Of a stretch of 64,000 nt of DNA, positions 1-12,097 are shown piece after piece. Position 1 is the first letter of the stretch. Each line of letters opens with the position of its first letter. Source of the stretch: Novacetimonas maltaceti. GTDB taxonomy: Bacteria > Pseudomonadota > Alphaproteobacteria > Acetobacterales > Acetobacteraceae. Under the pieces are notes generated by a model. The model was not told the DNA's origin, searched no databases, and saw only the letters and a program-made list of their open reading frames with translations. The position numbers and the translations under genes are program-made. The stretch spans positions 1 through 64,000 of the forward strand of contig NZ_POTC01000002.1 in assembly GCF_002906255.1 (NCBI RefSeq), read 5' to 3'.

Positions 1-509
1 ATCAACAAACGTCTCGGCCAGTCGATCAGTCACCCAATCCAACCGCACCTCCACCATGCCTACACAAGGTAAACACAGCAAAACGCCGCCAACATATCCC
101 TTCCAGTCTCTATTCTATTGTCAATGACCAAGTCCGTAGCGGCTGGTGTGCCGTTCGGTGAAGCGGGTTTTACGGAGATCGACCCCCATTGTCAACGCCT
201 TATGCAAACCCCTCAAAAACACCGGAAAACCGCCAAACCCGAACCAAAAACTCCCATTCCCGCCACATCAACGCGAAAAAAAAAGCAAAAAAAAGAGGAG
301 GAGGCTCACGCCTCCCCCTCCCTGCACGCTCAAACTCCCGACACGTCAGTCCGCGTCAACAGCATGCCCGTCAATCGTCAGGTGGTCGCATCCCTGCAAT
401 TTGGGACATGATCAAATCATGTGGGCACCCGGAACTTGTGTTTGCGCAGGCCTGTCCTCATACGTAAGGGGCCTTGCATCCCGCATTGCAATGACACCAA
501 CGGTCTGGA
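1..509. other. Intergenic region with no supported gene
   Basis: No open frame here looks like a real protein: the short frames overlap each other and are rich in Pro, Arg and Lys from a skewed base mix. The region is locally C- and A-rich. It holds a terminator-like hairpin directed to the minus strand at about 276-315 (listed separately) and two TTGTCAA words near 118 and 199. I recognise no tRNA, rRNA or known small RNA. It may hold the 3' flank of a gene left of the window or a small RNA, but nothing decides this. Confidence 0.5.
276..315 (-). terminator. Rho-independent terminator reading on the minus strand
   Basis: A hairpin with arms GGAGGC (300-305) and GCCTCC (310-315) and loop tcac is followed, on the minus strand, by a few bases and then two long T tracts (the A runs at 287-294 and 276-284). 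This is the classical layout of an intrinsic terminator for a transcript coming from higher coordinates. No minus-strand protein gene lies immediately to its right, so what it terminates is unclear. Confidence 0.65.
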
Positions 510-1652
510 TTGAACGTGCAGCGCGTTATTTTCCCTTATATCGGACATCCGCATCAGGAGTTCCATTCCCTTCCCATCGCGATGGAAATGGCAGCCCGCC
601 ACCCCGATGTCGAAGTCCATCTGGCAAGCCTGACGGAAAAACGCGAAGCGCACCTGCAATATCTGGCGAGTTTCTACCCGGAGGCGCGGGTCCAGTATGA
701 ACTCCTGCGACTGCCATCCTTCCTCCGGCGCCAGATTGACAGGCGTGGTCCGCAACCCACGGACAAGATACTGGCCCTGTTTTTAAACAAAGAATATTTC
801 CGAAAGTTTCAGGCAATCGTCGTTCCCGAACGTACCAGCCTGTATCTGCGCCGGATGGGGATAAGGCAGCCCAGGCTGGTCTGGACCCGTCATGGCGCAG
901 GGGATCGGGCCGTCGGTTTTGCCAAGGATGTCCGGCACTTCGACTATATCCTGATGGCCGGCCACAAGGTGGAGCAGCGCCTGATGGCACAGGGCAGCCT
1001 GCGGCCCGGCCATTACAGAAATGGAATTTATGCAAAATTCGACCTGGTGCAGCGCATGAATATTCATCGCGACCGGTTGTTCCCCAATGACCGCCCGACC
1101 ATCCTGTATAACCCGCATTTCAGCCGCCACTTGTCATCATTCCCAAAATTCGGCATTCAGATACTCGATTATTTTGCGCGACAGCAGAAATACAATCTGG
1201 TTTTCGCTCCGCACTACAGGTTGTTCGACAGCCACCGTACCGAAGCACAACGGCTGTTCCGTCCCTACCAAGATTGCGGACATATGTTGTTTGATCCAGG
1301 TAGCGAGAAGAGCATCGACATGACCTATACCATGGGGTCTGACCTATATATGGGCGACGTCAGCAGTCAGGTTGCGGAATTCCTGACCACGCCGCGCCCC
1401 TGCCTGTTCCTGGATGCGCATGAAACCCGCTGGCGCGACAACCCGAACTACACAAGTTGGTCCCTGGGGAACGTGATCGATTGCGTCGCGGATCTTGGCC
1501 ATGAAATCGACAGGGCATTTACGATGCAGACCCAATTCCTAGACCGGCAGAAATCATATATACATGACACGTTCGGCGATGCCGTACCGGGACCGAGCGC
1601 CGCAACTGCCGCGAATTCAATCATTGACTTTTTAAGGTCAAATGATCGATGA
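510..1652 (+). CDS. CDP-glycerol glycerophosphotransferase-like protein (TagB/TagF-like)
   Basis: 380 residues. The C-terminal half resembles the glycerophosphotransferase family: an ILYNPHFS block near residue 196, FAPHYRLF near 235, and a DLYMGDVSSQVAEFL block near 280, comparable to the conserved Asp-Val-Ser-Ser region that binds the CDP-alcohol donor. Family members transfer a phosphoglycerol-type group from a CDP-activated donor to a lipid or glycan. No signal peptide or membrane segment is evident, so a cytosolic or membrane-associated enzyme is expected. The start is TTG at 510, the first codon available after an in-frame stop at 492; GTG 516 and ATG 582 are alternatives, and no strong ribosome site marks any of them. 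It overlaps the next gene by ATGA, so it is coupled to the acyl-AMP ligase. A role in adding a sphingolipid head group is inference. Confidence 0.6.
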   Translation: MNVQRVIFPYIGHPHQEFHSLPIAMEMAARHPDVEVHLASLTEKREAHLQYLASFYPEARVQYELLRLPSFLRRQIDRRGPQPTDKILALFLNKEYFRKFQAIVVPERTSLYLRRMGIRQPRLVWTRHGAGDRAVGFAKDVRHFDYILMAGHKVEQRLMAQGSLRPGHYRNGIYAKFDLVQRMNIHRDRLFPNDRPTILYNPHFSRHLSSFPKFGIQILDYFARQQKYNLVFAPHYRLFDSHRTEAQRLFRPYQDCGHMLFDPGSEKSIDMTYTMGSDLYMGDVSSQVAEFLTTPRPCLFLDAHETRWRDNPNYTSWSLGNVIDCVADLGHEIDRAFTMQTQFLDRQKSYIHDTFGDAVPGPSAATAANSIIDFLRSNDR

Positions 1653-3439
1653 CCGCGTTTTCTTCATTCCAAGTCCTGCCCGTGGAAGTCACATTACCGG
1701 AAATGACACGTCTCCCGACCCCTACAGATTCTGGCCAGCCGCGACGCTACGGCGATTTCGACACTTTCCTGCAGGCGCTTGATTACGCCGCGGAAGGCGA
1801 AAGTGGCTTCAACATCTACTCGGGCCGGGGTGAACTGCTGGAGGCACTGCCCTACCGCACCCTGCGACAGCAGGCGCGCGAGGTTGCGCAGCGCCTGCTG
1901 TCGCTTGGACTGAAACCCGGTGAGCGGGTTGCCATCGTCGCAGAAAGCGATGGGGATTTCGCACGCATCTTCTTTGGTTGCCAGTATGCCGGCCTGATTC
2001 CCGCGCCCCTTCCCCTGCCCGTCGCATTCGGTGGCCGCGAAGGCTATGTCGCGACCCTGCGCGGCATGGTGGAAAGCGCCGATGCCTCCGCACTGGTCAT
2101 CGCCTCCATTATCGCATCGTGGAAGGATGACCTGATCGAAGGGCTCGACCTGCGTTTCGCCGGCGTTCCCGAAGACCTGCTGGCCACGCCAATTACCGTG
2201 ACCGACCTGCCGGATGTCGGGCCGGACGACATTTCCTACCTGCAGTTTTCTTCCGGCAGCACGCGCTTTCCCATGGGAATCGCGGTAACACAGCGTTCTG
2301 GCATGGCAAATGCACATGCCATCGCGCTCAACGGGCTGAAGGTGCGTGAAAAGGGCGATCGCTGCGTTTCATGGCTGCCGCTGTATCATGACATGGGGCT
2401 GGTCGGATTCTTCCTGACCCCCATGACGTGCCAACTGAGCGTCGACCTGCTGCCAACCCGCGAATTCGCGCGTCGTCCCCATGTCTGGCTGGACCTGATC
2501 AGCCGCAACCGCGGCACGATCTCCTACAGCCCGTCCTTCGGGTATGAACTGTGCGCGCGCCGTGCGACTTCCATCTCGCTCGACCTGTCATGCTGGCGGG
2601 TCGCGGGGATTGGCGGCGACATGATCCGCTATCATATCCTTGAGGATTTTGCCGAACGCTTTGCCGCCTCCGGCTTCGACAGCCACGCCTTCACCGCCAG
2701 CTACGGCATGGCGGAAACGACGCTTGCCATCAGCTTCGTGCCGCTAGGCTCAGGCATCCAGACCGATACGATCGACCTGCGCATCCTTGAGACGCAGGCC
2801 ATCGCCTCGCCTTCCAACGATCCGTCGCAGATGCTGCGCACGTTCGTCATCTGTGGCGAGGTCCTGCCCGGACATGAACTTGAAGTCCGCGATAGCGAGG
2901 GCAAGGTCGTCAAGGACCGGCAGCTGGGGACGATTTTCGTCCGTGGCCCCAGCCTGATGCAGGGCTATTTCCGCCAGCCGCAGGAAACAGCCAAGGTCGT
3001 CGATGCGGACGGGTGGCTCAACACGGGGGATCTTGGCTACATGCTCAATGGGCAGGTGGTCATTACCGGACGCGCCAAGGACCTGATCATCATCAACGGC
3101 CGCAACATCTGGCCGCAGGACCTTGAATGGTCGGCGGAAACGGAAATCGCTTCCCTGCGCAGCCGTGACGTCGCGGTATTCTCCGTCGATGAAAGCGACG
3201 GGGAAAAGATCGTGGCCCTGGTCCAGTGCCGCGCCACGACACCCGAAGCCCGCGAAACCCTGCGCAACGACACCGCCAGCCTGTTTCGTCGCCAGCACGG
3301 GGTCGATGTCTCGGTCATCCTTGTCCCCCCCCACACGCTGCCGCAGACTTCCTCGGGCAAGCTGACGCGTGCGCGGGCCAAGTCGATGCTGCTGTCGGGG
3401 GCGTTCAAGCCGATCGATACCACCATTTCCGTGGCCTGA
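1649..3439 (+). CDS. Fatty acyl-AMP ligase / acyl-ACP synthetase of the sphingolipid cluster
   Basis: 596 residues of the ANL adenylating superfamily. The ATP-binding loop is FSSGSTRFPMG near residue 200, with SWLPLYHDMGLVG near 247, the adenylate-binding SYGMAETTLA near 351, and a hinge with TGDLGY and GRAKDLIIINGRN in the C-terminal third. The FAAL-type layout with a following acyl carrier protein points to loading a fatty acid onto ACP rather than CoA. In Caulobacter a similar gene (AasR) supplies the acyl-ACP used by serine palmitoyltransferase; homology to it here is inferred from family and neighbours. The gene starts by ATGA overlap with the upstream gene. Hairpins follow its stop, so the ACP-spt pair may be a separate transcript. 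Confidence 0.85.
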   Translation: MTAFSSFQVLPVEVTLPEMTRLPTPTDSGQPRRYGDFDTFLQALDYAAEGESGFNIYSGRGELLEALPYRTLRQQAREVAQRLLSLGLKPGERVAIVAESDGDFARIFFGCQYAGLIPAPLPLPVAFGGREGYVATLRGMVESADASALVIASIIASWKDDLIEGLDLRFAGVPEDLLATPITVTDLPDVGPDDISYLQFSSGSTRFPMGIAVTQRSGMANAHAIALNGLKVREKGDRCVSWLPLYHDMGLVGFFLTPMTCQLSVDLLPTREFARRPHVWLDLISRNRGTISYSPSFGYELCARRATSISLDLSCWRVAGIGGDMIRYHILEDFAERFAASGFDSHAFTASYGMAETTLAISFVPLGSGIQTDTIDLRILETQAIASPSNDPSQMLRTFVICGEVLPGHELEVRDSEGKVVKDRQLGTIFVRGPSLMQGYFRQPQETAKVVDADGWLNTGDLGYMLNGQVVITGRAKDLIIINGRNIWPQDLEWSAETEIASLRSRDVAVFSVDESDGEKIVALVQCRATTPEARETLRNDTASLFRRQHGVDVSVILVPPHTLPQTSSGKLTRARAKSMLLSGAFKPIDTTISVA

Positions 3440-3459
3440 GGCCACCGGTCCGGTCCCTG

Positions 3460-3487
3460 TCCGTTTCCGCCATGCGGCGGGAACGGA
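3460..3487 (+). terminator. Strong hairpin after the acyl-AMP ligase
   Basis: A 12-bp stem with one G-U pair (3460-3471 with 3476-3487) and a four-base loop lies about 20 bases after the stop of the ligase gene. It has no T run, so it may protect the mRNA 3' end or slow polymerase ahead of the weaker T-run terminator just downstream. Confidence 0.5.
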
Positions 3488-3507
3488 TGTACTGTCGGCA
3501 GGTTAAA

Positions 3508-3533
3508 GCGGTACTGGTCAAAATACCGTTTTT
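3508..3533 (+). terminator. Weak intrinsic terminator upstream of the ACP leader
   Basis: A short stem CGGTA (3509-3513) with TACCG (3524-3528) is followed directly by TTTTT. The stem is only five pairs, so termination is probably partial. It could separate the acyl-AMP ligase message from the ACP-spt message or act as an attenuator. Confidence 0.4.
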
Positions 3534-3540
3534 CAATCAT

Positions 3541-3629
3541 AAGGGGGGTCCTTCATGGGGGGACACCATCAGGCGCGCCCCCTGTTCCGGAAAATCCCGG
3601 AACCTGGCAACGACACGCTGACCCCCTTT
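3541..3629 (+). promoter_or_regulatory. Candidate structured mRNA leader of the ACP-spt genes
   Basis: By eye, a closing helix pairs 3541-3550 with 3620-3629 (seven Watson-Crick pairs, one G-U, two A-T). It encloses a G-run/C-run hairpin (about 3557-3561 with 3578-3582) and the perfect stem GTTCCGG (3584-3590) with CCGGAAC (3597-3603). A further small hairpin, GGCA/TGCC at 3642-3655, sits just before the AAGGA ribosome site at 3658. I know no named RNA family for it. Confidence 0.35.
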
Positions 3630-3669
3630 TCGGTGATATCCGGCAGGGTCATGCCATAAGGATGTAATA

Positions 3670-3921
3670 ATGAGTGAAACGGTAGCGGACGTCTCGGCCA
3701 TCATCGTGCAGACACTGCTGGCGAACCCCAAGGTTCCCCGTGACATCAATGGCGGCAGCAAGATCGTCGAGGATCTGGCGTTCGATTCACTGGCCGTCAT
3801 GAATTTCGTCATGGAGATCGAGGACAAGCTCGACGTCTCCGTCCCCCTCGACCGGCTGGCGGACATCCGCACGATCGACGACCTCGCCGCCTGCATCGTC
3901 TCCCTCAAGCAGGCGTCCTGA
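3670..3921 (+). CDS. Acyl carrier protein dedicated to the sphingolipid cluster
   Basis: 83 residues, the usual ACP size. The phosphopantetheine attachment site is Ser40 in the motif FDSLAVM, followed by an acidic helix II (EIEDKLDV). It is clearly distinct from the housekeeping AcpP at 16922-17161, which has DSLDTVE. It is preceded by an AAGGA ribosome site and lies five bases before spt, so it probably carries the acyl chain made by the upstream ligase to serine palmitoyltransferase, as AcpR does in Caulobacter (role inferred from the shared gene arrangement). Confidence 0.85.
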   Translation: MSETVADVSAIIVQTLLANPKVPRDINGGSKIVEDLAFDSLAVMNFVMEIEDKLDVSVPLDRLADIRTIDDLAACIVSLKQAS

Positions 3922-3926
3922 TCCTC

Positions 3927-5138
3927 ATGTCCATTTTTTCGAAATATGAGGGACTGTCACGCTCGCTGTCCACCGTGACCGCCGAAGGTGGCCGCAACCC
4001 GTTTGACGTGGTGATCGAACGGCCGATTTCCTCGACGGTCGGACTGATCGAAGGGCGCGAGACCCTGCTGTTCGGCACCAACAACTACCTCGGCCTCAGC
4101 CAGTCGCCCGCCGCGATCGAGGCCGCCGTGGAGGCCGCGCGCAAGTATGGCGTCGGCACGACCGGGTCGCGCATCGCCAACGGCACGCAGGGACTGCACC
4201 GGCAGCTGGAAGCCCGGCTGGCAGCATTTTTCCGTCGCCGCCACTGCATGGTGTTTTCCACGGGATACCAGGCCAACCTCGGCACGATTTCGGCGCTGGC
4301 GGGCAAGGATGACTACCTGCTGCTCGATGCGGACAGCCATGCCAGCATCTATGATGGCAGCCGACTGGGCCATGCGCAGGTCATCCGTTTCCGCCACAAT
4401 GATGCCGACGACCTGCGCAAGCGGTTGCGGCGCCTTGATGGCACCCCCGGCGCCAAGCTGATCGTGGTGGAGGGGATCTACTCCATGATGGGCGACGTCG
4501 TGCCGATGGCGGAATTCGCGCAGGTCAAGCGCGAAACCGGCGCATGGCTGCTGGCGGACGAGGCCCATTCCGTGGGCGTCATGGGCGAGCATGGCCGCGG
4601 CGTGGCCGAGGCCGATGGCGTGGAAGACGACATCGATTTCGTTGTCGGCACCTTTTCCAAGAGCCTTGGGACGGTTGGTGGCTACTGCGTTTCCAACCAT
4701 GACGGGCTGAACCTGATCCGGCTGTGTTCACGTCCCTACATGTTCACCGCCTCCCTGCCGCCGGAAGTCATCGCCGCCACCATGGCCGCGCTTGACGAAC
4801 TGGAAAACCGGCCCGAACTGCGCCACCAGCTGATGGACAACGCCCGCCGCCTGCATGCGGGGCTGAACGCCGCTGGCCTGCGCACGGGTCCGCAGGCCAG
4901 CCCGGTTGTGTCCGTCATCCTTGATGATGTGGAACAGGCCGTCGCCTTCTGGAACCGGCTGCTTGACCTTGGGGTCTATGTCAATCTCAGCCTGCCGCCC
5001 GCAACGCCGGACCAGCACCCGCTGCTGCGGACGTCGGTCATGGCGACGCATACGCCTGAACAGGTGGATCAGGCCGTCAGCGTCTTCGCGGCGGTGGCTG
5101 GCGAACTTGGCATCAATCGCGCGCCTGTTTCCGCCTGA
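3927..5138 (+). CDS. spt: Serine palmitoyltransferase (alpha-oxoamine synthase)
   Basis: 403 residues, a PLP enzyme of the alpha-oxoamine synthase family that condenses serine with an acyl thioester to give 3-ketosphinganine, the first step of sphingolipid synthesis. Seen motifs: DADSHASIYDG with His138 (substrate/PLP stacking), DEAHSVGVMG with Asp211 and His214, and the PLP lysine Lys245 in GTFSKSLGTVGG. The family also includes 8-amino-7-oxononanoate synthase (BioF) and glycine C-acetyltransferase. The adjacent ACP, the acyl-AMP ligase and the facing lipid kinase argue for Spt, and the similarity is to the soluble bacterial type. Its last 26 bases overlap the 3' end of the convergent Tam41-like gene. 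Confidence 0.85.
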   Translation: MSIFSKYEGLSRSLSTVTAEGGRNPFDVVIERPISSTVGLIEGRETLLFGTNNYLGLSQSPAAIEAAVEAARKYGVGTTGSRIANGTQGLHRQLEARLAAFFRRRHCMVFSTGYQANLGTISALAGKDDYLLLDADSHASIYDGSRLGHAQVIRFRHNDADDLRKRLRRLDGTPGAKLIVVEGIYSMMGDVVPMAEFAQVKRETGAWLLADEAHSVGVMGEHGRGVAEADGVEDDIDFVVGTFSKSLGTVGGYCVSNHDGLNLIRLCSRPYMFTASLPPEVIAATMAALDELENRPELRHQLMDNARRLHAGLNAAGLRTGPQASPVVSVILDDVEQAVAFWNRLLDLGVYVNLSLPPATPDQHPLLRTSVMATHTPEQVDQAVSVFAAVAGELGINRAPVSA

Positions 5139-6111
5139 AGAACCCTGCCTGCCGCAGCGACCATAACAGGCGCGGCAGGCAGATCAGCGGATGGCGTTCG
5201 GCAAAGGGCGACAGCGGCAGGTCAATGCCGGAATGGCGCTTGATCTTCCATGCGATGTACCGCGCCCCCCCGGCAAAGGTAAATGCCCCCTTGGCCAGAC
5301 GCGCGACATTCAGCGGCTGCCCCATCTTCCGGCGCAGCCACCAGCCATCGCGCATGTCCCTGCGCCATGTGGCATCGACCTTTGGCTCCAGTTCGTCGCC
5401 GTGCTCCACAAAGGGCAGGCCATCGGCCCGCCATGCGGCAGCCAGCAGCGCGCGATAACGGTCTTCATGTCCCTGTACAATGGTACGGGGACGCTTGCGG
5501 CTGCTCTCGACACGCAGTTCCGCGCCATAGGTGCTTGAAAACAGCGCGTTCCAGAAATCATCCGCCCGCCCCTGCCGTGGTCCCAGCGCCATGGCCCAGC
5601 GCGCGGCCATGGCCACGGCGCGGATCAGGCAGCCAAGGATGGCGTCGGCCGCCTGCTCATCACGCACCCAGACCAGGCGCACGGGCTGGCAGAAGCGTGC
5701 CCATATGGTGGTGTCCAGCGTCCTGCGCCCGGTCATGTGGCGGAACTGCTCCAGCGTCAGGATCGCGACCTTCGCACGGACCATCCGCCCGTCCATGAGG
5801 CGTTCATGATATTCCACGTTGGGCGGCAGCAACCGGTTGGCCGTGCGCGCCCAGCCACCCGCAGGCCAGTCCTGCAGCCGTTCGACGATGATGTAGAAAT
5901 CCAGTATCCCGTCCATGTCCGGCTGCCGCAGGGCAGAGCCATAGAACAGCACGCCCAGCGGCCGCGACGGGCCGATCATCGCGGCGACAAAGGACGTGAC
6001 GGCAGGGGGCACCGGCTGCACCAGTTCGGAGACCAGCAGGTGCGCGACCTCGCTGGCGGCCGAAGCATCGGGGACGGTATGCATCTGTTGCGCGGCCATC
6101 TTCTCCCTCAC
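5113..6111 (-). CDS. Tam41/MMP37-like phosphatidate (or ceramide-phosphate) cytidylyltransferase
   Basis: 332 residues matching the Tam41 family, best known as mitochondrial CDP-diacylglycerol synthase. The nucleotidyltransferase core is LFYGSALRQ (Gly58-Ser59) followed by LDFYIIV (Asp71). Further family landmarks are the block ending in CQPVRLVWV near 148-157, FWNALFSSTYGAELR near 196-210, and a basic C-terminal KGAFTFAGGARYIAWKIKR segment. The start is taken at GTG 6111, overlapping the kinase stop by GTGA; ATG 6099 directly after GGGAGAAG is an alternative. Coupling to a lipid kinase next to spt suggests it makes CDP-activated lipid from the kinase product. Whether the substrate is phosphatidate or ceramide-1-phosphate is not visible. 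Confidence 0.7.
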   Translation of the reverse strand: MREKMAAQQMHTVPDASAASEVAHLLVSELVQPVPPAVTSFVAAMIGPSRPLGVLFYGSALRQPDMDGILDFYIIVERLQDWPAGGWARTANRLLPPNVEYHERLMDGRMVRAKVAILTLEQFRHMTGRRTLDTTIWARFCQPVRLVWVRDEQAADAILGCLIRAVAMAARWAMALGPRQGRADDFWNALFSSTYGAELRVESSRKRPRTIVQGHEDRYRALLAAAWRADGLPFVEHGDELEPKVDATWRRDMRDGWWLRRKMGQPLNVARLAKGAFTFAGGARYIAWKIKRHSGIDLPLSPFAERHPLICLPRLLWSLRQAGFFRRKQARD

Positions 6112-7097
6112 GCCTGGATGAAATCGATGGGCGGCGTGACCGACAGGTAGGTCACGCCATCGGGGCCGGAATCCAGGACTTCGCCATCGAGCACGAAATC
6201 CTCCTTCATCTCCAGCCGGATACGCCGCGCGCAGCCACTGTCATAGGCCGCATTGCGACGCAGCCATGCAGGCACGCGCCCGCGCAGCAGGGACAGCACC
6301 GCCCCCGTCAGGCGTGGCGGCGACCCCGCGACGTCGAGGTACCAGATGCCATCATCATGCGAGTCGTGCCCCTGCCAGAACGGCCACACGCCATGCGGCA
6401 GTTTCTGCAGGGTCGTCGCGAGGAACAGGAAGCATGGCCCGCTGCGCCGTGGCGTCCCCTCCACCGTCAGCGCGACCTGGTCCCCCTGCATCCATTCCTG
6501 CCGGAAGCGCCGCGACAGCAGGTGCGCGATGGAAGAGCCCAATGTGACGATCACCGCCATCTCATGCGAATACCGATCGAGAATCGCAGGCTGGTGCGCC
6601 AGTTCGATACCCCGCCGGAACGCGGCCCCACCATGGAACATGCCCACGACGGGAAGGCGTTGCGGATCACTCCAGCTGACCACGAGGCCGCGGCGGCGAC
6701 GGATGTTGCGCCGCATGTCGCCCCCCGCCGCAAGGCGGTTGAGTCGCGACAGCGCCTCCATCCCGCGCAGCCCGAATCCCACGTCACCCGCAATCAGGTT
6801 CGTGTTTCCCGAAGGCAGGACCGCGATCGCGGGCAGGCTGTCGGGGCGGTAATGGCAATGGACCGCGCTGAGCACGTCACTCAGCGTGCCATCGCCACCA
6901 TCGACGACGATGCACTGCACATTGCGCCGCGCAAGGTCCGCCACGGTGCGCACCAGTTCGTCCGGCGCGCCGGGCGTCAGAAAATCATCCCCCAGCGACC
7001 GCCGCGCCATCATGCTGTAATGTTCATTCCCGCTCCGATTCCGCCGACTGCGCGGATTATGGATAATGACGAAGCGTGGTGTCACGGACGGTCCCAA
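6108..7097 (-). CDS. Diacylglycerol kinase-family lipid kinase (candidate ceramide kinase)
   Basis: 329 residues with a diacylglycerol kinase catalytic domain: the NTP-binding GGDGT at 67-71, LPSGNTN at 94-100 (the usual proline-glycine-asparagine loop), and a late LDGE near 303. Such enzymes phosphorylate diacylglycerol, ceramide or sphingoid bases. In Caulobacter a relative (CpgB) is a ceramide kinase in ceramide phosphoglycerate synthesis; the location here beside spt suggests the same, by inference. The start is uncertain: TTG at 7097 or GTG at 7085. It is the first gene of a two-gene minus-strand unit with the Tam41-like gene. Confidence 0.75.
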   Translation of the reverse strand: MGPSVTPRFVIIHNPRSRRNRSGNEHYSMMARRSLGDDFLTPGAPDELVRTVADLARRNVQCIVVDGGDGTLSDVLSAVHCHYRPDSLPAIAVLPSGNTNLIAGDVGFGLRGMEALSRLNRLAAGGDMRRNIRRRRGLVVSWSDPQRLPVVGMFHGGAAFRRGIELAHQPAILDRYSHEMAVIVTLGSSIAHLLSRRFRQEWMQGDQVALTVEGTPRRSGPCFLFLATTLQKLPHGVWPFWQGHDSHDDGIWYLDVAGSPPRLTGAVLSLLRGRVPAWLRRNAAYDSGCARRIRLEMKEDFVLDGEVLDSGPDGVTYLSVTPPIDFIQA

Positions 7098-7268
7098 TCG
7101 TTTAGAAATTTGACGTACGGGTCATAAGCAACCATCTGCCTCTTATTGCAAGCTAGGAAAACCAGCTTATCTCGACATAGGTGCCGTCGGGATGGCGTAA
7201 CCCATACATGATGAAGCCAGCAGACAAGCCGTCTGGCGCATCCAGATGCATCCGGGGGAAAGTGCCTT

Positions 7269-8186
7269 TTGACCGATATTCTGATTGCACATGCCTCCGA
7301 TCTGCATCTGACACTCGACACCCTTCGCATCCGGGCGCGTGACCTGCTCAACAAACGTGCCCTGAGCTATCTCTCATGGCAGCGCAGGCGGCTGATACAC
7401 CGTACGGACATGCTGCGGCGCGTGATGGCGGACATCACCGCCCATAAGGTCGACATGCTGGCGGTGACGGGGGACCTGACCAACCTTGGCCTGCCCGACG
7501 AATGCGCGCAGGCCGCACGCTGGCTGTCGGAACTGCCGATGCCGGTTACTGTCGTGCCCGGCAATCATGATGCGCTTGTCAGCAGCGACTGGCACCAGTC
7601 CATCGGCCGGTGGGCGCCATGGATGGGGCCCCTGCCCTTCCCCTTTGTGCGCCGGGTGGGGCCGGTTGCCCTGATCGGCATCAATTCCGCCCATCCCACG
7701 CCGTGTTTCCAGGCATCGGGCGATATCGGCGCGCACCAGGCCGCACGGCTTGCGGACGCGCTGGAGGAAACCGGCCGGCAGGGGCTGTGCCGTGTGGTCA
7801 TGATCCACCATCCGCCGCTGGCCCGCCTGACACCGCGTCGCAAGTCACTGCGCGATGCGGACAGGTTCGCCGCCTGCATCGCGCGGCACGGGGCCGAACT
7901 GGTCCTGCACGGGCATACCCATGTCTCCACCATTGCGACCCTGCCCGCGCCCGATGGCCCGGTGCCGGTCGTGGGCGTGGCCTCCGCATCCGCAAGGTCG
8001 CCAGACCCTGCACGCGCGGCATCGTGGAACCTGGTGCATATCTCCCCTGCCGCCAATGGGGGATACCGCACGGAAATCACACGCAGGATCATGCTGCCCG
8101 ATGGCAGGGCCACCGCAACGCCGCCGATTATTTTCACCCCGGCCGCTTCATCCCCGGTGCATTCGGGTATAAGCACGCCGCGATGA
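7269..8186 (+). CDS. Calcineurin-like metallophosphoesterase
   Basis: 305 residues with all five family blocks: SDLHL (metal ligands Asp11, His13), GDLTN, GNHD, HHPP and the C-terminal HGHTH. It is a two-metal phosphoesterase, probably cytosolic, since no signal peptide is seen. The start is TTG, supported by a GGGGGAA ribosome site about eight bases upstream. It is translationally coupled to lptF (ATGA overlap), so it is the first gene of the lptFG operon. The substrate is unknown; a lipid or nucleotide-sugar phosphoester would fit the neighbours. Confidence 0.85.
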   Translation: MTDILIAHASDLHLTLDTLRIRARDLLNKRALSYLSWQRRRLIHRTDMLRRVMADITAHKVDMLAVTGDLTNLGLPDECAQAARWLSELPMPVTVVPGNHDALVSSDWHQSIGRWAPWMGPLPFPFVRRVGPVALIGINSAHPTPCFQASGDIGAHQAARLADALEETGRQGLCRVVMIHHPPLARLTPRRKSLRDADRFAACIARHGAELVLHGHTHVSTIATLPAPDGPVPVVGVASASARSPDPARAASWNLVHISPAANGGYRTEITRRIMLPDGRATATPPIIFTPAASSPVHSGISTPR

Positions 8187-9421
8187 ACCTTCCTCAGTCC
8201 ATGCGCCGTGGTCTCCGGGGACTGATGCCCGGAACGCTGGATCATTACCTGCTGCAGCAGGTCATCCCGCCATTTTCCATTTCACTGGGCGTGGTGATGG
8301 CCGCACTGCTGCTGGAGCGGCTTCTGGCGCTGTTCAACCTGCTGGCATCCAACGGCAGTTCGATGAAGACCTTCGTGTCGCTGCTGACGGACCTTGTTCC
8401 CCACTATCTCGGGCTGGCGCTGCCGGCGGCCATGTGCGTCAGCGTGTTTTCGGTCATCCGCCGGATGAGCCAGAATCACGAGATCGACGCCCTGATGGCC
8501 AGCGGCGTGTCCATGTTCCGCATCGCGCGCCCCTTCATCGTCGTGGGAACGGTGCTTGGCGTGCTCAGCTTCTCGCTTTACGGATTCATACAGCCTTACG
8601 CCCGCTACAACTACCGCTCGGCACTGTATTTCGCCAGTCATAGTGGCTGGACCCCGCACCTGCAATCCCACATGTTCGCCGCCCCTTCGCACGACCTGAT
8701 GCTGACGGCGGAAAAGGTGGATGACGCGGGGTCGCGGATGTTCAAGGTCTTCATCCGCGACAACAGCAACCACGACCTGACGCGCTACATCACCGCGCGC
8801 AAGGGATACCTGTATATCCCCGACAATGACGAGAAGATCCGCCTCGACCTGATTGACGGCACCATCATCACCGACCGGCACGACAAAAACCCGAGCGTGA
8901 TCCATTTCGACCATACGACGGAACTGTTCTCCCCCCACGGGCAGCTCGACAAGATGAAGGCCAACCGCACGCGCGGGCAGACGGAGCGTGAACTGACGCT
9001 GCCGGAACTGTATCACGGCATCCGCCACGGGATTGACGGGATCAGGCATTCCTATCTGGTGGCCGAACTGCATTTCCGCCTTGCCCGCACGGTGGCGATT
9101 CCGTTCATCCCCCTGCTGGCCTGCGCGCTGGCGGTCATGGCGAAACGGCAGAAACGCAGCCTTGGCCTGCCCATCGCGGCCGTCGCGCTGGTGGGGTTCG
9201 ACCACACCCTGCAGATGGGCCTCAGCCTTGTGGCGAACGTGCACATGTCGCCGCTGCTGGTGATCTGGCTGCCGACGCTGGTCTTCGCCACATGCTGCGT
9301 CTGGGCGCTGGTCTGGCGCTGTGGCGGCCTGCGCATCCTGATGATGCCCGAACATCCATCCTCCCGGCGTGAACTGTCGCCTGACGGGCTGCCGCGCCGC
9401 GTCCAGGATGCACGCCCATGA
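8183..9421 (+). CDS. lptF: LPS export ABC permease LptF
   Basis: 412 residues of the YjgP/YjgQ permease family. Together with LptG and the LptB ATPase it extracts lipopolysaccharide from the inner membrane and pushes it to the LptC-A-D bridge. Hydrophobic segments sit in the N-terminal third (about 25-50, 65-90, 105-130) and the C-terminal third (about 310-400), with a periplasmic beta-jellyroll region between, the expected topology. The start is taken at ATG 8183, overlapping the metallophosphoesterase stop by ATGA. Naming F versus G rests on gene order. Confidence 0.85.
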   Translation: MNLPQSMRRGLRGLMPGTLDHYLLQQVIPPFSISLGVVMAALLLERLLALFNLLASNGSSMKTFVSLLTDLVPHYLGLALPAAMCVSVFSVIRRMSQNHEIDALMASGVSMFRIARPFIVVGTVLGVLSFSLYGFIQPYARYNYRSALYFASHSGWTPHLQSHMFAAPSHDLMLTAEKVDDAGSRMFKVFIRDNSNHDLTRYITARKGYLYIPDNDEKIRLDLIDGTIITDRHDKNPSVIHFDHTTELFSPHGQLDKMKANRTRGQTERELTLPELYHGIRHGIDGIRHSYLVAELHFRLARTVAIPFIPLLACALAVMAKRQKRSLGLPIAAVALVGFDHTLQMGLSLVANVHMSPLLVIWLPTLVFATCCVWALVWRCGGLRILMMPEHPSSRRELSPDGLPRRVQDARP

Positions 9422-10539
9422 GTGGCGGCTGGGCACGGCGCACCCTGCTGCCGGGTGGCAGGGTGCTGGTGGGATACCTGACGCGCGAACTCCTCTCCAA
9501 GGTGTTCGCCACGGCTGCCGTCATCATCGCGCTGATGGAGGTCCTGGCCCTGCTGGAGCAGGTTACGGAGATCATGAGCCGTCATCTCGGCCTGTCGGGG
9601 GTGCTGTATTATGCCGTGATCCGCCTGCCGCTGCTGTTTGGCAACGCCATGCCGCTTGCGGTGCTGATCGGGGCGCTGATCACGCTTGTGCAGCTGACAA
9701 GCTCGAACGAGATTTCCATCCTGCGTGCGGCGGGCCTTTCGACGCCGGGGCTGTTCCGCCTGTTCCTGCCCGCCGTGCTGGGGCTTGGGGTGCTCTGCGT
9801 CACTGTCGATGACCAGATCGTCCCGCGCAGCGAGGTCGCGCAGGCACGGTGGTGGAACAGTACCAACCCCTCCCCCAACGGGGTGTCGCGGGATGTCTGG
9901 TTCCGCACCGGCATGACGCTGGTCAATATTGGCGGCGTTGCGCGCGGCGGGCAGGAACTGCATGACGTGACGGTCTATCGCCGCAATGATGATGGCGGGC
10001 TGCAGAAGGTCACCCACCTGCCGACGGTCCGCTATTTCATCAACCGCTGGAGCGGGGTGCCCGACCACAGCCTGACGGTGCTCAGCGCCACCAGGGTGGA
10101 ACAGGCCGATCCGGCCGACGACACGCGCCTTGTCATGGACTGGCCGCAGGCACTGACGCCCGATGTGCTGCTGCAGCTTTCGGAAAACACGCCACTTTCG
10201 ATCGCGACGATGCTGCGTGTCCTGCGTAATGATTTCCCATCCAGCCAGTCGCCGGCATTCTTCATGACCGAAATACTGGGTCGTATCATGTTACCCCTGA
10301 CATTTACGGTTATGCTGTTATTGGCTATTCCTGTGGTTTATATCCCTCCCCGGGCCGGGACGCGCAGTTGGCTGCCTGTCTGGTGCCTGGGTGCAGGTCT
10401 GGTGTTTGTCGTGTTCCAGGGGCTGTTGCGGGCTCTTGGCAATGCCGGTACGCTCCCCTCCGTGGTGGCGGTTTTTGTCGGGATCGTAATTTTCATTCTC
10501 GGCGTTGTGACAGTGCTATTGAGGATAGAAGAACGATGA
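9418..10539 (+). CDS. lptG: LPS export ABC permease LptG
   Basis: 373 residues, second YjgP/YjgQ permease and partner of LptF in the LptB2FG complex. It has three N-terminal membrane segments, a periplasmic domain (about 100-270) and three C-terminal segments ending in a short basic tail (RIEER). It overlaps lptF and the following hydroxylase gene by ATGA, so the three are made together. Base composition drops in the last 250 bases, where several TTA/TTG codons cluster; this looks like local drift rather than transfer. Confidence 0.85.
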   Translation: MSGGWARRTLLPGGRVLVGYLTRELLSKVFATAAVIIALMEVLALLEQVTEIMSRHLGLSGVLYYAVIRLPLLFGNAMPLAVLIGALITLVQLTSSNEISILRAAGLSTPGLFRLFLPAVLGLGVLCVTVDDQIVPRSEVAQARWWNSTNPSPNGVSRDVWFRTGMTLVNIGGVARGGQELHDVTVYRRNDDGGLQKVTHLPTVRYFINRWSGVPDHSLTVLSATRVEQADPADDTRLVMDWPQALTPDVLLQLSENTPLSIATMLRVLRNDFPSSQSPAFFMTEILGRIMLPLTFTVMLLLAIPVVYIPPRAGTRSWLPVWCLGAGLVFVVFQGLLRALGNAGTLPSVVAVFVGIVIFILGVVTVLLRIEER

Positions 10540-11318
10540 TTACCAGTACCCTGAAGAACACATCCATCCGGACGGGGCGCAGCTTCGACCTGGGGAAGAT
10601 GAATCTTCGCCAGCTGTGGATTGCCTATCTCACCTATCCGACAATCCTGCTCTATTTCGCACTGGCACTGTGCAGTTTCGGCATCATGGTCCACACGTTC
10701 GTGTCGTGGCTGCCGGTATGCATCAGCATCATGTCGGTGGTCTTCGTCTATCCGCTGGTGTGGTACGCAATCCACCGCTTCATCCTGCACGGACGGTTCC
10801 TCTACCGCGTGAAATGGACATCCGCGCTGTGGAAACGCATCCATTTCGACCATCACCAGGACCCGCACCTGCTCGACGTGCTGTTCGGCTCGCCGCTGAA
10901 CACCATCCCGACCATCGCAATCGTCACCATCCCCATCGGCTTCGCCATCGGGCAGGCGGCGGGTGCCGCGGCGGCATTCGGCGCGGGACTGACGATTACG
11001 TGCATCTATGAATTCTTCCACTGCATCCAGCACCTCAACTACAAGCCGAAGATGGCATGGATTCAGCGCATGAAGCAGCGTCACGTGCTGCATCATTTCC
11101 ATAATGAAAACGGCAATTACGGCATCACCAGCTTCATCGCGGACCGCCTGTTCCGCAGCTATTACGTCGATGCCAAGAGCTGCCGGCGCAGCCCGAGTGT
11201 CTTCAACCTCGGCTACGACCAGGACGAGGCGAAACGCTACCCCTGGGTCATGGACCTGACGGGTTCGCCGCCGCGTGACCGTCCCGATGGCGCGAATCCG
11301 AACCGGAACGCCGCATGA
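10536..11318 (+). CDS. Fatty acid hydroxylase / sterol desaturase-family membrane diiron enzyme
   Basis: 260 residues. The histidine boxes of the family are visible: H80-x4-H85 (HRFILH), HFDHH at 103-107, HCIQH at 162-166 and HVLHH at 183-187, placed around membrane segments at about 33-55, 60-80 and 125-160. The family includes the fatty acid 2-hydroxylases that act on ceramide acyl chains. Acetic acid bacteria are reported to contain dihydroceramide with 2-hydroxypalmitate, so a sphingolipid 2-hydroxylase is an attractive, unproven role, supported by the spt cluster 5 kb away. It is ATGA-coupled to lptG upstream and to the nucleotidyltransferase downstream. Confidence 0.8.
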   Translation: MITSTLKNTSIRTGRSFDLGKMNLRQLWIAYLTYPTILLYFALALCSFGIMVHTFVSWLPVCISIMSVVFVYPLVWYAIHRFILHGRFLYRVKWTSALWKRIHFDHHQDPHLLDVLFGSPLNTIPTIAIVTIPIGFAIGQAAGAAAAFGAGLTITCIYEFFHCIQHLNYKPKMAWIQRMKQRHVLHHFHNENGNYGITSFIADRLFRSYYVDAKSCRRSPSVFNLGYDQDEAKRYPWVMDLTGSPPRDRPDGANPNRNAA

Positions 11319-12097
11319 CCACGCGTGCGGGACTGAACGTACTCATCCTTGCGGGCAGCCGGCGTGGCGTGCGCGACCCGATGGCGCAGGCTGCCGGCAT
11401 CTCGCACAAGGCCATCCTGCCGGTCTGTGGCCGCCCGATGATTACGCGGGTCTGTGACGCCCTGATGCAGGTGCCCGGCGTGGGGCGGATCGTGGTCTGC
11501 ATCGACAGTCCCGACGCCGTGCGCGATGCCCTGCCCCCTTCTGTCACCTTCCTTCCCGAAGCCGCAGGGCCAAGCGCCAGTGTCATGAACGCGCTTGGCG
11601 TCCTTGGCGCGCCGCTGCTGGTCACGACGGCGGACCATGCCCTGCTGCGCCCCGAATGGGTCAGCGCCTTCATTGCCGATTCCACGCGCGCGAACTGCGA
11701 CATGTCGGCAGGCATCGCGCTGGAACCTGCGATCCTGCGCGACGTGCCCGATACGAAACGCACGATGATCCGCCTGGCCGATGGCGCATTTTCCGGCTGC
11801 AACCTGTTTTTCCTGCGCACGCCCGCCGCGATGTCGGTGCTGAAACTGTGGCAGCGGCTGGAAAATGACCGCAAGCATCCGTTGCGCATGGCGCGCCTGC
11901 TGGGGCCGGGCATCCTGCTGCGCTTCGTCCTGCGCCGCCTGACGCGCGCGGCGGTATGCGAACGTATCGGGCACCTGACAGGCGCGCGCGTGGGACTGAT
12001 TCCCATCGACGATGGGCGTGCCGCCGTGGACGTGGACAAGCCGGCGGACCTGGACCTTGTGACGCGCCTGATCGGGCGGGAGACCGCGCCTGCATAA
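11315..12097 (+). CDS. MobA-like NTP transferase domain protein
   Basis: 260 residues with an N-terminal nucleotidyltransferase fold: LILAGSRRG near residue 10 (the G-rich NTP loop), SHKAILPVCGRPMI near 30 (conserved Lys and Pro), and TTADHALL near 99 (the metal-binding Asp). Enzymes of this fold join CTP, GTP or UTP to a sugar- or alcohol-phosphate. It overlaps the hydroxylase gene by ATGA and ends the lptFG operon. The substrate cannot be read from the sequence; a CDP-alcohol donor for lipid head groups is one possibility. Confidence 0.7.
   Translation: MTTRAGLNVLILAGSRRGVRDPMAQAAGISHKAILPVCGRPMITRVCDALMQVPGVGRIVVCIDSPDAVRDALPPSVTFLPEAAGPSASVMNALGVLGAPLLVTTADHALLRPEWVSAFIADSTRANCDMSAGIALEPAILRDVPDTKRTMIRLADGAFSGCNLFFLRTPAAMSVLKLWQRLENDRKHPLRMARLLGPGILLRFVLRRLTRAAVCERIGHLTGARVGLIPIDDGRAAVDVDKPADLDLVTRLIGRETAPA

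Follow-up and report, generated by a model that had tools for sequence, protein, structure and literature searches.

Whether a kinase and a Tam41-like enzyme encoded beside serine palmitoyltransferase activate a phosphorylated ceramide with CTP is the question raised by the left part of the 64,000-nucleotide stretch of Novacetimonas maltaceti DNA analysed here (the window). An earlier note described a six-gene cassette at 510-7097; all six open frames, their strands and their coupling were recovered, but its extent was understated, since open frames and the neighbourhood in the window give a cluster of eleven genes spanning 510-12097:

510-1652, + strand: TagF-type phosphotransferase-like protein (GPT), CC_1167 ortholog (38% identity to the Caulobacter protein; PF04464 in relatives; TagF by VIA)
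1649-3439, + strand: fatty acyl-AMP ligase, AasR type (NF006624, 905 bits, cutoff 600; position and order as in Caulobacter)
3670-3921, + strand: acyl carrier protein, AcpR type (PF00550, 4.4e-10; Caulobacter-cluster profile match)
3927-5138, + strand: serine palmitoyltransferase Spt (NF047599, 643 bits, cutoff 500; Caulobacter-cluster profile match)
5113-6111, - strand: CpgC ortholog with predicted Tam41 fold, proposed CTP:ceramide-1-phosphate cytidylyltransferase (43% identity to Caulobacter CpgC; fold)
6108-7097, - strand: CpgB ortholog, ceramide-kinase type (PF00781, 1.2e-11; 32% identity to Caulobacter CpgB)
7269-8186, + strand: metallophosphoesterase, CC_1158 type (PF00149, 1.3e-14; Caulobacter-cluster profile, 294 bits; 40% identity)
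8183-9421, + strand: LptF2-type transporter subunit (Caulobacter-cluster profile, 368 bits; name from PMC11324152)
9418-10539, + strand: LptG2-type transporter subunit (Caulobacter-cluster profile, 274 bits; name from PMC11324152)
10536-11318, + strand: fatty-acid hydroxylase, probably ceramide-acting (PF04116, 5.9e-20; 29/30 family loci)
11315-12097, + strand: MobA-like nucleotidyltransferase, CC_1153 type, not CpgD (PF12804, 4.3e-13; 267 bits at the CC_1153 place; 44% identity; 28/30 family loci)

The first two of the four leading + strand genes overlap by 4 nt, as do the two - strand genes, while spt and the cpgC-type gene converge with a 26-nt overlap, and the five-gene run at 7269-12097 is likewise joined by 4-nt overlaps. 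The GPT start was placed at TTG 510, with GTG 516 as an alternative. A known RNA behind contig breaks left of the cluster was considered and rejected, as neither positions 1-6000 of locus L036 nor the window gave an Rfam match at gathering scores.

Judged by orthology, the region almost certainly corresponds, in variant form, to the cpg (ceramide phosphoglycerate) cluster of Caulobacter. When the window proteins were compared with C. vibrioides DSM 9893, CpgC aligned at 43% identity over 294 columns (210 bits) with its ortholog, which was the single match of a CpgC search of the Caulobacter genome (312 bits), CpgB reached 32% identity (110 bits) with place and strand conserved, and GPT reached 38% identity to CC_1167 (256 bits). 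The remaining cluster genes, apart from the hydroxylase, have profile matches in Caulobacter, where spt, cpgC and cpgB lie in like order and on like strands. The proposed sphingolipid cassette is borne out, with ligase, carrier protein and Spt matching aasR, acpR and spt, and kinase and partner matching cpgB and cpgC. With CC_1168-CC_1152 of Caulobacter crescentus/vibrioides, which serve CPG and CPG2, the cluster shares aasR, acpR, spt, cpgC, cpgB, CC_1158, lptF2, lptG2, CC_1153 and CC_1167, as well as the convergent spt/cpgC arrangement and the cpgC-cpgB pair on the opposite strand. Gluconobacter oxydans GOX2058-GOX2056 carries the same aasR-acpR-spt unit, assigned to sphingolipid precursor synthesis in the available part of PMC9386255, which does not deal with headgroup genes.

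The differences from Caulobacter concern genes sought by single Caulobacter proteins (CpgA, CpgD, CerS and CerR) and the PF04116 hydroxylase, which lies inside the N. maltaceti cluster, whereas 20 kb of the Caulobacter cluster contained no match. Ceramide synthase is indeed not in the window, as previously stated: a CerS homolog, just 36% identical (214 bits), lies outside the cluster elsewhere on the contig (C2:79604-80740), and a homolog occurs in 31/31 CpgC-positive family genomes, the set searched. For CerR, no ortholog was found; the best N. maltaceti match (64 bits) is no better than the background, which reaches 98 bits in genomes that lack a close Spt, and orthologs occur in G063, G102 and G071 among the 31 CpgC-positive genomes. 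The same searches found no N. maltaceti ortholog of CpgA, a CDP-alcohol phosphotransferase (best match 20 bits), or of CpgD, a CTP:phosphoglycerate cytidylyltransferase (best match 46 bits, partial); among the 31 genomes, orthologs of either occur only in G063 and G102, which have both. As far as these searches indicate, their absence from N. maltaceti and 28/30 relatives is a new observation, and addition of a second phosphoglycerate, as in the CPG2 of Caulobacter, is consequently not expected here. The gene at 11315-12097 was considered as CpgD and rejected, because its profile matches CC_1153 (267 bits) and the CpgD search left no ortholog in N. maltaceti; in Caulobacter, cpgD adjoins CC_1153 on the opposite strand. 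CC_1153 is required there for CPG2 and not for CPG (PMC11324152), which speaks against its activating the first headgroup.

Conservation ties CpgC to both the kinase and Spt. The cpgC gene adjoins a cpgB-type kinase gene at 30/30 other family-level loci and 27/31 class-level loci, so the pairing is not due to chance; at the class-level loci L091, L096 and L108, CpgC has no adjoining CpgB-type kinase. The expected co-occurrence with spt in related genomes was upheld: a close Spt was found in 30/31 CpgC-positive and 1/13 CpgC-negative family genomes (Fisher p 8e-9), where CpgC-negative means no match to the single window protein rather than to a profile. The 13 negatives are a selection among 89 genomes without a match, drawn from 20 listed after exclusion of G007, G012, G014, G017, G019, G023 and G026, mostly for fragmentation or lower quality. 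G056 has CpgC without a close Spt, G021 has Spt without a CpgC match, and locus L126 has no Spt within the 20 kb examined.

The kinase is of the ceramide-kinase type, an ortholog of CpgB, the proven ceramide kinase of Caulobacter. It contains GGDG and lacks the eukaryotic CxxxCxxC (motifs from the available part of PMC10331486; L032, L041 and L042 are excluded from kinase alignment A3). Its earlier description as DAG/ceramide-kinase-like stands as to type, but ceramide specificity cannot be called from sequence, because Caulobacter CpgB phosphorylates diacylglycerol comparably to ceramide in vitro, according to the same part of that source. This activity, together with the fact that Tam41 is a CDP-DAG synthase, would suit a second CDP-DAG route, in which kinase and partner act on diacylglycerol and phosphatidate and lie near sphingolipid genes by chance. 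We consider such a route quite improbable in view of the CpgC-Spt linkage over 44 family genomes, the canonical CdsA already present in N. maltaceti (PF01148, 168 bits), the loss of CPG from Caulobacter cpgB and cpgC mutants (PMC11324152; PMC12275187) and the unchanged phosphatidate of the cpgB deletion (PMC10331486, available part).

The Tam41-like label of CpgC is supported by fold and by one distant relative, but not by family matches of the window protein itself, which had none in Pfam or NCBIfam. Pfam Tam41 (PF09139) matched 0/31 aligned CpgC members and neither Caulobacter CpgC nor five further class-level members; one distant relative reached E 1.5e-4 (21.6 bits, under the cutoff of 24). 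Across 349 phylum genomes, PF09139 gave a single match, a CpgC-family protein (240 bits) adjoining a CpgB-type kinase; at E 2.2e-4 per genome, about 0.08 chance matches are expected over the 349, and the match carries weight mainly because a CpgC-family protein was the one struck. The same family found nothing in the N. maltaceti genome, where the controls matched nowhere either, so that result is uninformative alone. Profiles of 31 and 36 CpgC members searched against PDB sequences returned no Tam41, and each retrieved only one nucleotidyltransferase-domain chain (E 0.059 and 0.024).

The predicted structure points to Tam41. With the AlphaFold model (pLDDT 91.9), the top four Foldseek rows against the PDB were Tam41 (E 5.9e-9 to 3.3e-7, TM 0.48-0.58), and VIA gave Z 17.9 to 7ecd (Tam41 with CTP-Mg), 15.3 to 6ig4 and 15.0 to 6ig2, the next fold scoring 8.2. 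The VIA alignment to Tam41 spans model residues 32-279 of 332 at 12-14% identity; 7ecd, its best match, is yet not among the 50 Foldseek matches listed. Within the family, D71 is kept and is followed by F/L/Y and then Y in 34/36 members, and sixteen positions, including D71, K114, R139, E198, R200, E202, K289 and H293, are invariant across 36 diverse members (alignment A5 holds 36/63 available sequences and alignment A4 21/29). That just one classical acid of the fold persists might suggest a decayed nucleotidyltransferase acting as a non-catalytic kinase partner; this seems very improbable, as Tam41 itself is reported in the available part of PMC11646218 to keep, and function with, a single acid where the fold has three, and the sixteen invariant positions also argue for a working enzyme. 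CpgC would differ from Tam41/TAMM41 in its substrate, expected to be ceramide-1-phosphate rather than phosphatidate. This structural support for CpgC as a likely Tam41-fold enzyme appears to be new.

The reading that we moderately favour, by homology and predicted fold, is that ceramide is converted to ceramide-1-phosphate by the CpgB-type kinase, and that CpgC (5113-6111) would catalyse CTP + ceramide-1-phosphate to CDP-ceramide + pyrophosphate. A further transferase would then swap the CMP of CDP-ceramide for a polar headgroup, LptF2/LptG2 may help outward movement of the product, and the PF04116 hydroxylase probably hydroxylates the ceramide. Counting against CDP-ceramide is the absence from N. 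maltaceti of CpgA, the obvious type of enzyme to use it, which in Caulobacter serves the second step; to our knowledge, no enzyme uses CDP-ceramide. Alternatively, CpgC could be a nucleotidyltransferase-fold enzyme that makes or uses an activated headgroup, joined to ceramide-1-phosphate directly. Headgroup activation has a precedent in CDP-glycerate, the proven activated headgroup of the pathway (PMC12275187), and the published scheme gives no CpgC mechanism, the step from ceramide-1-phosphate to ceramide phosphoglycerate being called open (PMC12275187; PMC13228409, available part). We nevertheless regard a headgroup-activating CpgC as unlikely: the closest fold, over most of the model, is that of a CTP:phosphatidate enzyme, orthologs of CpgD, which makes CDP-glycerate, are missing from N. 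maltaceti and from 28/30 CpgC-keeping relatives, and CPG formation persists in Caulobacter when CpgD is absent (PMC12275187).

The CDP-ceramide idea is not new. Contrary to the earlier note, which knew of no described bacterial CDP-ceramide route, Olea-Ozuna et al. (2024) had suggested that CC_1161 (CpgC) might form a nucleotide-activated ceramide (PMC11324152). Outside subscription papers, we found no paper on CDP-ceramide in the bacterial sphingolipid literature. The Tam41 fold and the single conserved acid now point to a concrete, testable reaction of CTP with ceramide-1-phosphate, whose product, if the assignment is true, is the sphingolipid counterpart of CDP-DAG. Furthermore, with CpgA and CpgD naturally missing, this variant offers a less complicated setting in which to study the first headgroup step.

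The transferase might be sought in the gene that heads the + strand unit. Its description as CDP-glycerol-phosphotransferase-like is backed in part by PF04464 in relatives and by a predicted TagF fold, but not by a family match of its own, as the window protein had no Pfam match up to E 1. PF04464 was found in 11/14 aligned relatives scanned singly (best 1.4e-7; the L032 fragment is excluded from alignment A2), whereas the Caulobacter ortholog, CC_1167, stays under the cutoff of 22.1 at 14.8 bits. VIA with the GPT model placed TagF first (Z 23.4, 329 aligned), although further GT-B enzymes follow closely, with UDP-GlcNAc 2-epimerase at Z 22.5, and Foldseek alone placed other GT-B enzymes first and TagF at rank 38. 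Invariant His and D-x-S-S stretches are shared with the TagF/TarL teichoic-acid polyol-phosphate transferases, and a TagF-type identity, as suggested by these comparisons, would be new for the CC_1167 family.

GPT is present at ortholog level (at least 414 bits, the level of the Caulobacter ortholog) in 18/31 CpgC-positive family genomes and at any level in 21/31, compared with 0/13 CpgC-negative genomes (Fisher p 4.1e-4 and 2.6e-5, respectively). Matches in G060, G066 and G070 (274-368 bits) lie in the paralog range of other genomes; being missing in 10/31 and paralog-level in these three, GPT is excluded as a universal partner of CpgC. Its replacement of CpgA and CpgD was also considered and set aside: GPT is missing from G063 and G102, which carry CpgA and CpgD, but the association is not significant (Fisher p 0.10). 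Action of GPT on the sphingolipid is possible, if somewhat doubtful. With the CC_1153-type nucleotidyltransferase, it forms the cluster's remaining candidates for headgroup transfer and activation, and any division of roles between them is a guess. The broadest reading, tentative and unlikely as a whole, is that acetic acid bacteria make a phosphosphingolipid via CDP-ceramide from a Tam41-fold CpgC, with a headgroup attached or extended by a TagF-type phosphotransferase fed by the CC_1153-type enzyme, which would bring teichoic-acid chemistry to a sphingolipid independently of CpgA and CpgD.

Judged by titles and the beginnings of abstracts, no paper on headgroup genes of acetic acid bacteria appeared among the literature matches listed, and among those listed for CC_1167/CCNA_01225, only PMC11324152 concerns the gene by title. 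The CC_1167 family has been listed in print as probably unrelated. It becomes a candidate here because the fold predicted for it would suit a CDP-alcohol phosphotransferase, the gene heads the Spt unit in N. maltaceti and at 11/30 relatives' loci, and CC_1167 shows a cofitness of 0.57 with spt in Caulobacter (PMC11324152).

The six genes grouped by the earlier note as a sphingolipid cassette are open reading frames, with places, strands and couplings as it stated, but the unit extends beyond them to 12097, because five downstream genes recur in loci of the same bacterial family and overlap by 4 nt each in the window:

510-1652, + strand: TagF-type gene (GPT, CC_1167 type), its protein without a match in the family scan
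to 5138, + strand: AasR-type ligase (NF006624, 905 bits, cutoff 600), ACP (PF00550) and Spt (NF047599, 643 bits, cutoff 500)
5113-6111, - strand: CpgC, the Tam41-like gene, its protein without a match in the family scans
6108-7097, - strand: CpgB-type kinase (DAGK_cat, PF00781, 1.2e-11)
7269-12097, + strand: phosphoesterase (CC_1158 type), LptF2, LptG2, PF04116 hydroxylase and nucleotidyltransferase (NTase, CC_1153 type)

Gene presence was surveyed at 30 loci (L021-L050) in other genomes of the family. The kinase adjoins CpgC in all 30, the hydroxylase gene is found in 29, and the NTP_transf_3 (NTase) gene in 28, the contig of L034 stopping short of its place; in 26 loci the sequence read includes Spt. 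Genes for the phosphoesterase, LptF and LptG occur in 28 and were not found in the stretches read at L023 (G116) and L024 (G029). These two loci belong to small genomes (1.9-2.1 Mb); the genes retained, those for the ligase, ACP, Spt, CpgC, CpgB, NTase and hydroxylase, suggest a minimal set. Putative roles for the hydroxylase, LptF2/LptG2 and phosphoesterase are those of their families and of the Caulobacter study, as far as its available text goes (PMC11324152). In Gluconobacter oxydans, GOX2058-2056 have been assigned to sphingolipid precursor synthesis, according to the accessible part of PMC9386255.

The reference cluster, L115, was located in C. vibrioides DSM 9893 with a cpgD primer printed in the accessible text of PMC12275187, and was searched with profiles based on the window genes' relatives. 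GPT (411 bits), ligase (792), ACP (64) and Spt (603) matched in that order, followed on the opposite strand by CpgC (306) and CpgB (205), and then by the phosphoesterase (294), LptF2 (368), LptG2 (274) and NTase (267). No match in this cluster was obtained with the hydroxylase profile. By order and domain type, the matched genes correspond to CC_1167, 1165, 1163, 1162, 1161, 1160, 1158, 1156, 1155 and 1153, respectively, as named in the available text of PMC11324152, the numbers being given by position since the DNA record carries no locus tags. Pairwise identity between the window and DSM 9893 is 43% for CpgC, 32% for CpgB and 38% for CC_1167.

The AlphaFold model of CpgC was built on a 31-row alignment (mean pLDDT 91.9). 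In a Foldseek search of the PDB, the top four rows were Tam41 chains (E 5.9e-9 to 3.3e-7), with TM scores of 0.48-0.49 when normalised to the length of the model and 0.56-0.58 when normalised to the target, and other nucleotidyltransferases started at 4e-4. VIA aligned residues 32-279 of the 332-residue model, with 12-13% identity, to a Firmicutes Tam41 bound to CTP-Mg (7ecd, Z 17.9, 231 residues), 6ig4 (Z 15.3) and 6ig2 (Z 15.0), the next fold reaching Z 8.2. A Tam41 fold for CpgC is thus what the model shows. Tam41 was not found when PDB sequences were searched with CpgC-family profiles, and it was matched by none of the 31 aligned CpgC-family members. A PF09139 search of 349 genomes of the phylum gave a single match (E 2.2e-4), in G493, to a protein that belongs to the CpgC family by profile (240 bits). 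Scanned against all of Pfam, this protein had Tam41 as its sole family (E 1.5e-4, 21.6 bits, cutoff 24), and five other class-level CpgC members scanned alongside it had no Tam41 match; as judged from these profile scores, it is a sequence bridge from the CpgC family to Tam41. Around it at L126 are genes for a kinase of the CpgB type (140 bits), for LptF/LptG-type proteins (76 and 107) and of the CC_1153 type (209); in the 20 kb read, the profiles for Spt, ACP, ligase, phosphoesterase and hydroxylase had no hits. The active-site strand of CpgC carries one acid, D71, in 36/36 members, followed by F, L or Y and then Y in 34/36; Tam41 likewise retains one acid out of the three that the fold has, according to the available text of PMC11646218.

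We infer that CpgC uses CTP, and that its substrate would be the ceramide-1-phosphate of the route proposed earlier, from ceramide through CDP-ceramide to a head-grouped sphingolipid. The genome has a canonical CdsA, and a role of CpgC in making phospholipids therefore need not be assumed. The accessible texts of PMC12275187 and PMC13228409 call the mechanism of CpgC unidentified. The earlier note knew of no described bacterial CDP-ceramide route; such a route is indeed unproven, but it is not unproposed, because a prior proposal is in print.

Co-occurrence with spt was borne out in related genomes. Of 120 family genomes, 31 contained a match to the window CpgC, a count that takes in the genome it comes from. 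A close Spt (at least 54% identity and at least 460 bits among CpgC-positive genomes) was present in 30/31 of them versus 1/13 CpgC-negative genomes examined (Fisher p 8e-9), the latter being G021 (54%, 431 bits). The positive exception is G056 (best 35%), where an Spt-like gene facing CpgC at L029 is 35% identical to the window Spt and no nearer to it than the paralogs that other genomes have. The link is more than proximity, because in G117, G054, G066 and G063 Spt sits at another genomic place than the CpgC locus. At class level, a profile search matched CpgC in 34/289 genomes, four of them from the same family as the window, and the kinase stands beside CpgC in 27 of 31 further loci drawn from this search (L081-L111); it is missing there from L091, L096, L108 and L110, the last at a contig end. 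The kinase place holds a CerS-like gene in L096 and L108 and a CpgA-like gene in L091. CpgC relatives, annotated as hypothetical protein, are also carried on 17 plasmid records (H1-H17) from Roseomonas, Pseudomonas, Diaphorobacter and Qipengyuania, and the gene may therefore be transferable from one bacterium to another.

CpgA, CpgD, CerR and CerS were searched with single-protein queries. Among the 31 CpgC-positive family genomes, CpgA and CpgD orthologs occur in two (G063, G102), with weaker CpgD-like matches (68-69 bits) in G056 and G071, and CerR orthologs in three (G063, G102, G071). In the window organism, these searches found neither a CpgA nor a CpgD ortholog, and the best CerR match (64 bits) is at background level. 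A CerS homolog is present in 31/31, the window organism's copy lying at C2:79604-80740. The absence of CpgA and CpgD is credible, because completeness of this genome is given as 99.99% and four single-contig genomes (G013, G025, G029, G046) also lack both. In Caulobacter, as reported in the available text of PMC11324152, the ceramide phosphoglycerate CPG needs cpgB and cpgC, while CPG2 needs CpgA, CpgD and CC_1153, with a contribution from CC_1158. By analogy with these requirements, the window organism, probably an acetic acid bacterium and having neither CpgA nor CpgD, should either go no further than a CPG-like lipid or produce a different headgroup.

GPT is, with moderate confidence, a candidate sphingolipid headgroup enzyme. 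PF04464 (CDP-glycerol glycerophosphotransferase) was matched by 11/14 aligned relatives (best 1.4e-7). For the GPT model (14-row alignment, pLDDT 87.6), VIA placed TagF first (Z 23.4 over 329 residues) and further GT-B enzymes not far below it (Z 22.5), whereas Foldseek alone was led by UDP-GlcNAc 2-epimerases, TagF ranking 38. Any profile match occurs in 21/31 CpgC-positive versus 0/13 negative family genomes (Fisher p 2.6e-5), and matches of at least 414 bits, the score of the one Caulobacter match, in 18/31 versus 0/13 (Fisher p 4.1e-4). Missing from 10 to 13 of the 31 genomes, GPT is therefore not a general partner of CpgC; G117 and G054 each carry it ~2 kb from Spt, on a contig that lacks CpgC. 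The available text of PMC11324152 classes CC_1167 as probably unrelated and gives its cofitness with spt (0.57) and with CC_1159 (0.54). At L032, GPT is reduced to a fragment of ~80 residues ahead of the ligase (G060:C1:59763-60002), and the same genome has two full-length relatives at other places. The contig begins at most ~700 bases left of GPT in the window (1-509), G073:C12, G030:C3 and G008:C6, and no Rfam families were found in the stretches searched. A CC_1166-type flippase gene lies directly upstream of GPT in L022, L033, L034, L036, L038 and L039; the place where those contigs begin is taken by a flippase gene in other relatives.
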